DNA of 64,000 bases from an uncultured delta proteobacterium (GTDB lineage: Bacteria; Desulfobacterota; Desulfovibrionia; Desulfovibrionales; Desulfovibrionaceae). This document shows, in pieces, positions 1 through 19,706 of this stretch. The position numbers and the translations under genes are program-made. Numbering within the stretch: the stretch's first letter is position 1; each line of letters opens with the position of its first letter. The stretch lies in contig CAILNX010000037.1 in assembly GCA_903835685.1 (NCBI GenBank), positions 1-64,000 on the forward strand, written 5' to 3'. The notes under the pieces are model-generated. The model saw only the letters and a program-made list of their open reading frames with translations. It did not search any database and had not been told where the DNA came from.

Positions 1-2469
1 CATCAGCAACAGCTGTCTTTGTTTTCTTGTCTTTGATGCTCCGCAGCTTGCTGCGGGGTAGTTCACTATACGAAATAATTCTCCACTCCATTTTGATGTA
101 TCGGTAGTAATATCCCATTCCCAACTTCCGACATGAGCAATAGATTCAGTTCTTGTCAGCATTTCTTGCTGATAGCGTAACTCTTGTTCAATTTGTTTAC
201 GCTCGGTGATGTCGGTATGGGTGCCACTCATTCGAAGGGGTCGGCCATCAGCATCGCGTTGAACAACTCTGGCTTGGTCTAGTATCCATCGGTAGTGGCC
301 GTCCTTGGTCATCATCCGGTATTCCGCCCGGTGCATGGGGGTCAGGCCTTGGAGATGGGCCTGGATTGACTGCCAAGCCCACTCCCGGTCGTCCGGGTGG
401 AGGAAGTCCTCCCATTGGTTGACAGTGAACTCGACGTCTTTCAGCGTATACCCGAGCATCTCCGCCCATCGCTCATTTCGGACGACGACTCCTGTCTCCA
501 AATTCCAGTCCCAGAACCCGAGTTGGCTGCCTTCCAATACGCAGGTGAGGCGAGACTCGCTCTCAAGCAAGGCCACCTCTGTCCGTTTGCGCTCAGTGAT
601 ATCGGTAAAAACCACTATCCCCGCCACAACCACCCCGGTCTCATCCCGGATGGGCGCAGCGTTGGCTGAAACAAATCGGTCGTCAGAATTATCCCGGCGA
701 ACGATAAAATCACGGCTACATGTTTCTCCAAACATTATTGCGCGAGCTAATGGGACTTCATCGGGACGAAGAGGCCTGCCATCAAAATCCAGAATCTGCC
801 AACTCTTCACGTACTGTTCGATGCCGACTCCGTTCACGACACTTTCTCGGTCTCCGCCTCGGATAAGCAGTCCTGCATCGTTCACATAGCGCAGCATACC
901 ACTAGGGGCGTCGGCAATTGCAATGCCCGCTGGGCTTTGGTCCATGGCCGCCTGAAGTGAGGCTTTTGCATATTGAAGCTCTTTCTCTACTCGGCGTCGC
1001 TCCGTTACGTCACGGAACACGCCTAGGACAAACTTTTGCCCACCAATCTCGAAGTGACTGGTTTGCACCGACGTATGGCGAACTTCCCCGCCAGCAGCGC
1101 AGAGAGAAACCTCCTCAATCTGCCCTGGTGTGGTCACAACGCGGCGGAAGTCTTCGGTCATCCCATTGGTGACTGGCACAGTAGGGGGATGCAGCTCTCG
1201 CTGTGGCATCCCGATGAGTTGCTCTCTCGTCCGTCCAAAATACCTTTCCGCAGCCAAGTTGCATTCAACCAGAATACCCGTGTCTATGTCGGCCACAAGG
1301 ACAGGGTCACTCACTGAAGAAAACAGGGCGCGATGGCGTTCCTCACTTTCCCGTAATGCATCTTCGGCTCGTTTCCGCTCTGTCATTTCCTTTGAAAGTG
1401 TTTCGGCCATTTGGTCAAAGGCTTGCCCCAGTTTCTGGATTTCACGGCAACCCGTAAGGTCGCCGATTCTGGCCGCAAGGTTCCCGCTAGCCAGTTGGCT
1501 CGTCGCTTGAGTGAGGCGGTCCAAGCCTTGGCCAATGGTCGTGGTGCCTAGGAAACGAGCAGTCAGAAGAGCCAAAATTGTAGCACCGATGAGTAGCAAT
1601 ACCGCCGGGGCCAAATGAAATATCATTGCTGCCATTGTTATGTTTGGCATACCGGAAATAACTATGATGTAGGGATTATCTGTAGGAGTAAGACGAAGTT
1701 TCACGAACCCGAGTACTAAATCAGTGCCACCTGGTCCTGGGGCGTAGTAGGTCCCATCATCAGAATTTGAATCGTTTATTATCTTAACAGCGTAGGGCGA
1801 AAAGAAAGTTCCGAGTGGAGCGTTTTCATCGAAAGGAAATCGATAAGAGCGGACATAGTCGTGGTCTAAGAGTATGCAGCGCGTAAGAGGAGGCAGCGTT
1901 ATGCCCTGGAAAAATGAGTCGTATTGGTCCAGTCGAATTGCGGCGACTAGGACCGCTTTCATGACGCCGTCAGCGGTGAACACAGGAGTCGAGAAATGAA
2001 ATATAGGGTGTTTGATTAATCTACCAACAGTGTATTCTCCGGCACTGAACCGTCGGGTTAGAATCGTATCCTGGAAATATTTGCGGTCAAAGACGTTGAT
2101 GGGTTCCAGGAGTTCATGGCTGGCGCTCACCATCGTCCCCTGCATGTCCGCGTAGAAAACGTTGGTATAATTGGGGTGGACGTTGAGCAATTCCTTGAAG
2201 AGCTTATGCATGGCCGGAGCGTCAGCGGCTTGCACCTCCGGCAATCGGGCTAGGGTGTATAGGAAAACACGGGTGTTTTCAGTAAGGAGCTGTTGCTGGA
2301 AGGCTACAGACTTGGCCAGGATTAGTGCTTTATCGCTGGTATCCGAAACCGAACGCCGGTAGTCTACCACCCCGTAAATAACGATGACCAAGAGGGCCGG
2401 GAAAATGGCATACAGCACCAAAATATAGAGGTTTTTTCGGATGGACCACCGCTTGATGAATTCGAGCAT
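1..2469 (-). CDS. Multi-PAS membrane sensor (histidine kinase or cyclase type), C-terminus cut off
   Basis: An unbroken frame of 823 codons runs from an ATG at 2469 to the window edge with no stop. GGAAGG upstream is a fair ribosome binding site. Order of parts: membrane segment at about residues 13-34, periplasmic Cache-like sensor domain at about 40-270, second membrane segment at about 280-305, HAMP linker at about 308-360, then PAS domains near 380-495, 510-625 and 640-760 and the start of a fourth after 775. Each PAS ends in a DxTERK-type linker. No kinase, GGDEF or receiver domain is visible, so the output is unknown. The fourth PAS is broken at residue 802, exactly where the repeat at 31-66 begins; the last 22 codons are repeat and unknown DNA. 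Codon use is much less GC-rich than in the genes to the right, which suggests transfer. It is either a truncated gene or one whose frame simply continues beyond the window. Confidence 0.8.
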   Translation of the reverse strand, partial: MLEFIKRWSIRKNLYILVLYAIFPALLVIVIYGVVDYRRSVSDTSDKALILAKSVAFQQQLLTENTRVFLYTLARLPEVQAADAPAMHKLFKELLNVHPNYTNVFYADMQGTMVSASHELLEPINVFDRKYFQDTILTRRFSAGEYTVGRLIKHPIFHFSTPVFTADGVMKAVLVAAIRLDQYDSFFQGITLPPLTRCILLDHDYVRSYRFPFDENAPLGTFFSPYAVKIINDSNSDDGTYYAPGPGGTDLVLGFVKLRLTPTDNPYIIVISGMPNITMAAMIFHLAPAVLLLIGATILALLTARFLGTTTIGQGLDRLTQATSQLASGNLAARIGDLTGCREIQKLGQAFDQMAETLSKEMTERKRAEDALRESEERHRALFSSVSDPVLVADIDTGILVECNLAAERYFGRTREQLIGMPQRELHPPTVPVTNGMTEDFRRVVTTPGQIEEVSLCAAGGEVRHTSVQTSHFEIGGQKFVLGVFRDVTERRRVEKELQYAKASLQAAMDQSPAGIAIADAPSGMLRYVNDAGLLIRGGDRESVVNGVGIEQYVKSWQILDFDGRPLRPDEVPLARAIMFGETCSRDFIVRRDNSDDRFVSANAAPIRDETGVVVAGIVVFTDITERKRTEVALLESESRLTCVLEGSQLGFWDWNLETGVVVRNERWAEMLGYTLKDVEFTVNQWEDFLHPDDREWAWQSIQAHLQGLTPMHRAEYRMMTKDGHYRWILDQARVVQRDADGRPLRMSGTHTDITERKQIEQELRYQQEMLTRTESIAHVGSWEWDITTDTSKWSGELFRIVNYPAASCGASKTRKQRQLLLM
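31..66 (+). repeat. Partial third copy of the 113-bp hairpin repeat
   Basis: These 36 bases are identical to the right-hand end of the two 113-bp repeats at 18758-18870 and 19286-19398. They include the hairpin with an 8-base arm, a CTTG loop and the terminal GTTCAC. The 30 bases to the left do not match the other copies. The right end falls inside the reading frame of the sensor gene, as the right ends of the other copies fall inside another frame. Confidence 0.85.
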
Positions 2470-18637: not shown

Positions 18638-18757
18638 CCTCACTAATATGGAATATATATGAGCGGAGTCCCTGCATATTTGTTAAGGGTATTCAGCTCG
18701 GTCCTGACAGGCTGTTCAGCCTTGTTACTCGTCAATGCCGCAGGTCGGATTTTCCCT

Positions 18758-18870
18758 TTCAATCACTGCGGGTTGATTCCTCGAAGCTCGCTTCGTTTAC
18801 TCTTGGTTTGAGGAGTCTGTTCTGGGCCTTATGCCTTTGATGCTCCGCAGCTTGCTGCGGGGTAGTTCAC
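18758..18870 (+). repeat. 113-bp hairpin repeat, copy 1
   Basis: Identical over all 113 bases to copy 2 at 19286-19398. It contains two stem-loops. The first has a CGAAG/CTTCG stem with a CTCG loop (18782-18795), nested in a longer GATTCCTC/GAGGAGTC pairing (18775-18782 with 18810-18817). The second has a CTCCGCAG/CTGCGGGG stem with a CTTG loop (18843-18862). It has no coding capacity of its own and ends in GTTCAC. Confidence 0.95.
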
Positions 18871-18889
18871 TTGGGCACAGTCGCACGAT

Positions 18890-19339
18890 TTGTTAGTTCT
18901 TGACGCTTCGTTGCGCATTTATGCTTTTATTAAGGGCAGTGATTTTACTATTTATGTACGACAGAATTGGGGCTATTTACTGCTTATTGCTTTTTTTGCT
19001 GGTGAGCTGCTCTCAACTTCTTGGGAATTTTTTGTCGTACATCGACTTTATGGAGACCGGAGAAGTGGTTATGGGCCGAGAGATGAATTTGAATTTGTCG
19101 AGTATGAAATATCGAATTATATCAAAGGTGCATTCCTCTTTATTTTTGTTGTTGCCTGCACACTTTTCTTGTGTTCAAGAGAAATGTTTGTCTTTCCACT
19201 TGCGACTATTGCATTTATTGGGGCGTTTATTGCGATTTACTTTAGTATTAAGGAGCAAAATCATCTTGCTCACAAAGAATGTTTATTCAATCACTGCGGG
19301 TTGATTCCTCGAAGCTCGCTTCGTTTACTCTTGGTTTGA
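18890..19339 (+). pseudogene. Middle piece of the interrupted membrane protein
   Basis: The frame opens directly after the TAG inside repeat copy 1 and can start at TTG 18890. It runs for 149 codons with three hydrophobic segments (about 29-50, 83-99 and 101-119) and ends in repeat copy 2. Its last 17 residues are encoded by repeat sequence. No binding site precedes the TTG. An automated caller would probably call it a complete gene; I read it as a fragment. Confidence 0.5.
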
Positions 19340-19398
19340 GGAGTCTGTTCTGGGCCTTATGCCTTTGATGCTCCGCAGCTTGCTGCGGGGTAGTTCAC
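19286..19398 (+). repeat. 113-bp hairpin repeat, copy 2
   Basis: Exact direct copy of 18758-18870, 415 bases downstream of it. Upstream reading frames enter both copies in the same phase, and the downstream frames leave both in the same phase. The flanking bases outside the 113 bp differ between copies, so no target duplication longer than a base or two is visible. Confidence 0.95.
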
Positions 19399-19684
19399 CG
19401 AAGAATTCATTTTTATCATAAACGATCCTAGCCAATCAGTTTTTCAGATATCAGAATTGTATTACAATTTTCATAGATTGTGGTGCGGAGTGACTTGTTG
19501 TGCTTTTCTGCTTTTAATCCATTTTTCCGCTTATTGTTTTTTAGGTGAAATTAAAAATATAAATAATGTGTTATGTTTTTTTATTGGTATTTGTGTAGTC
19601 ATATGTGTTTCATTTTATATATCGATATATTATAGAAATTATGCAAACTACTTCACCAGGATCAATTTCAGACGGAAGAAATGA
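19399..19684 (+). pseudogene. C-terminal piece of the interrupted membrane protein
   Basis: The frame is open from the TAG in repeat copy 2 to the TGA at 19682. There is no ATG at its start; TTG 19457 is the first usable codon. It encodes about 95 residues with two hydrophobic segments (CCAFLLLIHFSAYCFLG and VLCFFIGICVVICVSFYIS) and a basic end (FRRKK). It is very AT-rich. It reads like the 3' end of a membrane-protein gene that has lost its start. Confidence 0.5.
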
Positions 19685-19706
19685 TTTTCGAGTGCCGCTA
19701 ACTCGT

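Follow-up and report, generated by a model that had tools for sequence, protein, structure and literature searches.

The window analysed here is a stretch of 64,000 nucleotides (C37:1-64000) within a 3.94-Mb draft genome of 65 contigs. At 18659..19684 on its + strand lies a gene of unknown function which is interrupted by two copies of a short repeat. With both 108-bp units removed it reads as one open frame for a predicted membrane protein of 269 aa, for which no Pfam match and no plasmid homologue were found. The region of the gene (18644-19700) looks AT-rich in a GC-rich genome and is possibly acquired DNA. The repeat had been described in an initial annotation as a 113-bp unit, and the segments 18758-18870 and 19286-19398 are indeed identical at 113/113 bases. 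The block common to all insertions in the genome, however, is 112 bases long and opens with TCAA, the leftmost of the 113 bases not being conserved. The element proper is 108 bp (TCAC...GTTCAC), with copy 1 at 18763..18870 and copy 2 at 19291..19398, both on the + strand. The first four shared bases are the retained TCAA target in host DNA, which for copy 1 is also the left cleavage site (18759..18762, + strand; 19287..19290, + strand, for copy 2).

Folding placed a hairpin near each end of the element, with the two loops, CTCG and CTTG, that had been predicted. In copy 1 the left-end hairpin (CGAAG-CTCG-CTTCG) spans 18782..18795 (+ strand), and its place is conserved in the left ends of homologous insertion sequences (IS). 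The right-end hairpin (CTCCGCAG-CTTG-CTGCGGGG) spans 18843..18862 (+ strand) and is identical in the right end of an IS resident in the same genome. The element always begins with TCAC and ends with GTTCAC, and it has no terminal inverted repeats; the single repeat returned by an inverted-repeat scan falls outside the element. As had been proposed, every copy breaks off sharply on the right after GTTCAC, and there is no coding capacity. The 108 bp contain stops in all six frames and no transposase gene, which they would be too short to encode.

A search of the genome with the repeat gave 28 matches. Eighteen copies cover 107-113 bases and each is 100% identical, and nearly all of the partial matches are located at contig ends. 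One insertion divided between the end of C56 and the start of C11 was counted once, as was the end of C52, which repeats an insertion on C47. The 108-bp element has thus been recently copied to ~19 places in its host bacterium. The exact two-ended pattern was found in 0 of 347 other genomes searched of the class and was not found in viral contigs; no match to plasmids was obtained with blastn.

TCAA lies directly 5' of the element in 17/17 insertions with two readable flanks. The flanks are otherwise unrelated, having only the left TCAA in common, and no target-site duplication was seen. Since open-frame length by itself is a weak test in a GC-rich genome, empty sites were assessed by alignment with homologues. 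Exact removal of 108 bp from an interrupted EamA transporter gene gave a gap-free alignment with 11 relatives, in which the restored junction reads the conserved INLVP. In-frame continuity was likewise recovered in genes for CheD, PilZNR (YcgR), a kinase/response regulator and a B12-binding protein. Because removal of 108 bases, with TCAA kept, rejoins host genes exactly, insertion took place 3' of TCAA and neither duplicated nor deleted host bases. The first base of the right flank is C or T in 17/17 insertions, as against 34% of genomic TCAAN sites (p 9e-9). This resembles IS608, where C is favoured at +1 and purines are disfavoured (PMC5934647).

The initial annotation had also noted a third, partial copy of the repeat at 31-66 and no transposase nearby. 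The recurrence is real (window 28-66 and repeat positions 75-113 are 97% identical), but it belongs to a full IS200-type element, of which it forms the right end, and is no fragment of the shorter one. This right end occupies 37..66 (+ strand), with a hairpin at 39-58, and matches the right ends of other IS. Directly upstream, at 1..36 (+ strand), lies the 3' end of its tnpA (HQQQLSLFSCL, stop; the last 11 codons and the stop codon). The same sequence runs upstream at C42 and C22 as the C-terminus of tnpA. Three IS right ends, at the contig ends of C37, C42 and C22, are preceded by a common sequence encoding GDEAMLSKYVKNQGVSKDYKKLHQQQLSLFSCL and then a stop; they are 97% identical to the 108-bp element over 39 nt. 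Four left ends (C49, C36, C15, and C8), 87% identical to it ungapped over 53 nt, continue into MSQYIHKRHNVSVLLYHIVCPAKYR, the start of tnpA. To judge by the relatives described below, MSQYIHKRHNVSVLLYHIVCPAKYR and GDEAMLSKYVKNQGVSKDYKKLHQQQLSLFSCL are the two ends of an IS200-type TnpA, and contig-end fragments of this kind indicate at least four full IS copies in the host genome. No match to PF01797 was obtained in the draft, and neither the centre of the IS nor an intact TnpA was found there, each full IS being interrupted by a break in the assembly. The earlier statement that no transposase lies nearby holds only on account of such a break, and the TnpA with matching hairpin ends that was to be sought is represented by tnpA-end fragments with such ends.

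Homologous IS in other bacteria have the same end layout. Plasmid relatives, about 70% identical at both ends, either are annotated as IS200/IS605 transposases or fall in regions lacking annotation. Two complete relatives in other bacteria encode a TnpA matching PF01797 with E values of 1e-38 and 8e-36. A decayed right end (TTTGATGCCCCGCAGTTTGCTGCGTGCGAGGTTCAC) at L058:1490-1522 (contig C51) appears to be an older relic of the IS200-type family in the same genome. Short IS200 elements can evidently break draft assemblies and so conceal their own transposase.

Orientation was compared with local GC skew. The strand carrying TCAA is the G-rich strand in 16/18 copies of the element (p 1.5e-4), although TCAAY sites are slightly rarer on that strand (45%). 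Ends of the IS lie on the G-rich strand in 5/7 cases, with two against the local skew. The G-rich strand is usually the leading strand. If this is assumed here, the orientation of the 108-bp element amounts to a bias to the lagging-strand template, as expected for IS200/IS605 elements, which use that template (PMC5371812).

Three other explanations of the repeat were considered. In the first, it would be a palindromic repeat of the REP/BIME type, spread by a domesticated TnpA-REP (RAYT). Such repeats are also short palindromes moved by a Y1 transposase, and a GTAG does stand beside the right hairpin. REPs, however, are defined by a GTAG 5' of the palindrome (PMC8266576), whereas here it is 3' of the right hairpin and none lies 5' of either hairpin. 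Moreover, the element has two unlike hairpins and fixed ends, it inserts at TCAA inside genes, the genome contains an ordinary IS200 whose ends are the same, and a search of the genome with PF01797 showed no RAYT gene. This explanation was rejected, with GTAG on the wrong side of the hairpin, and is very improbable. The second, a structured RNA or regulatory element (terminator, sRNA, or attenuator) kept for its function, is improbable to the same degree. The repeat folded as RNA is somewhat more stable than shuffled sequences (z -2.0), which is what speaks for it. Against this, the repeat has no match in Rfam (a scan of the window gave tRNA only), the interrupted genes are unrelated to one another and contain copies in either orientation, and the copies' 100% identity leaves no sign of selection as RNA, so it too was rejected. 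Least credible of all is a segmental duplication or repeated gene fragment without transposition, which the spacing of the two window copies (just 528 bp) might suggest but which was rejected by the 17 sets of unrelated flanks, the borders identical to the base and the exact restoration of host genes.

The repeat is thus almost certainly a non-autonomous IS200/IS605-type element, a palindrome-associated transposable element (PATE), presumably moved by the TnpA of a full-length IS. A non-autonomous, IS200/IS605-derived palindromic element was also the initial proposal, and it is borne out by the genome copies, the exact empty sites, the cognate resident IS and the PF01797 homologues. The copies, borders, target, absence of duplication, strand bias, homology of ends and tnpA fragments of the right type are direct observations, and the genome search and flank comparison that had been called for found copies well beyond the window, in unrelated surroundings. 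Nor did the element prove to belong to some larger insertion sequence already known. Mobilisation in trans by TnpA, as we infer it, would proceed as follows. Of an IS200-like element the PATE retains just the two ends, with a subterminal hairpin in each and a short putative guide before each hairpin. TnpA encoded by the genome's full-length IS copies would bind both hairpins on single-stranded DNA and cut after TCAA on the left and after GTTCAC on the right. The excised strand would then enter at another TCAA, on its 3' side and ahead of a pyrimidine, with preference for the lagging-strand template. In the middle of the PATE, CCTTATG is followed by CCTTTGATG, which looks like the start of tnpA joined to its stop. 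The PATE may therefore plausibly have arisen from a sister IS that lost its coding region.

A guide-like tetranucleotide precedes each hairpin on its 5' side. The left-end plan common to the homologues is target, linker, GGGT, guide, TTCC and hairpin. In copy 1 the putative left guide is TTGA (18773..18776, + strand), placed by analogy with G_L of IS608 and complementary to TCAA. On the same analogy, the left tetranucleotide may act as a guide that reads the target by pairing. The resident IS has guide TCAA and target TTAA, whereas the PATE has guide TTGA and target TCAA. In IS608, A+17 pairs with T-4 and A+16 with T-3 (PMC5934647). By that scheme the -3 pair would be T:A in the resident IS and C:G in the PATE. 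Guide and target covary in this way in 11/15 compiled left ends (9 combine A with TTAA and 2 combine G with TCAA); no clean fit was seen for two ends from Megaera, for Chroococcidiopsis or for an element of genome G685. The PATE could accordingly be a naturally retargeted derivative, with a single TnpA sending the IS to TTAA but the PATE to TCAA as a result of two base changes in the left guide (TCAA to TTGA). We advance this tentatively, rating it slightly below an even chance. If true, it would be a natural, one-genome counterpart of the experimental reprogramming of IS608 guides, and the parasite PATE could use sites other than those of its helper IS.

The element also accounts for peptide tails that recur at the ends of annotated proteins. 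IPRSSLR is the forward translation of the left element end and NYPAASCGAS the backward translation of the right end, both being footprints of the element as supposed. Within the window, ORF 18890-19339 terminates in HCGLIPRSSLRLLLV because element copies interrupt the gene at 18659-19684. The same cause applies on a Piscirickettsia plasmid (L062:1260-1847), where an inserted IS200 of this family cuts short the ORF of an IS30 transposase, whose tail, TPRSKLRGI, is encoded by the IS200 end. Relatives of the Piscirickettsia TnpA were not found in viral contigs. Both the unannotated repeat and the recurring protein tails are hence explained, the latter as reads through IS200-type ends.

Further sequences with all or part of this architecture were seen elsewhere. 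Two-hairpin, tnpA-less elements of ~90-100 bp lie after TTTAA at L168:1487-1600 (genome G401) and L169:1487-1590 (genome G364). They are apparently single, belong to other genomes of the phylum and follow the plan of the window element; the G364 element spans 93 bp, counted from TTAA through its right end. At L051:245-300 and L059:3590-3640 a single hairpin is present, the left-end guide region (GGGTTTAATTC) being fused directly to the right-end hairpin and GTAGTTCATT. These two may be minimal derivatives of this IS type, reduced to one hairpin. A scan of genome contigs with the right-end motif gave one single-hairpin locus, L059.

PATEs were defined in Haloquadratum (PMC3119063) and have been reported from cyanobacteria and Salmonella (PMC4853749), with a PATE-like sequence from Halanaerobium (PMC7290912). 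Like those of Haloquadratum walsbyi (PMC3119063), the present element is short and noncoding, has near-terminal palindromes, lacks terminal inverted repeats and target duplication, forms a homogeneous multi-copy type and has ends resembling those of a resident IS605-type element. It differs in its bacterial host, its TCAA target and a cognate IS200-like element whose only gene, so far as could be seen, is tnpA. The sequence of Halanaerobium hydrogeniformans (PMC7290912) is likewise an ends-only IS200/IS605 derivative in a bacterium, but a single one of 271 nt, as against ~19 identical copies of 108 bp here. A classical MITE would have terminal inverted repeats and a target duplication, and the 108-bp element has neither. 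With IS608 and ISDra2 (PMC5934647) it shares hairpins at both ends, a guide, here putative, 5' of the hairpin and insertion 3' of a short target kept at the left flank. IS608 itself (PMC5934647) has the target TTAC and the guide AAAG and carries both tnpA and tnpB; in comparison with it, the PATE has 5 nt between the putative guide and the foot of the left hairpin. The resident IS200-like element differs from the PATE in being full-length, in having tnpA and in its left guide and target. The 108-bp element therefore joins an already known kind and adds a clean, recently amplified bacterial PATE family in which target, borders and strand bias are all readable. The less ordinary point is that the PATE and the resident IS have different targets, and such a pair with differing guides offers a natural setting for testing guide-directed target choice.
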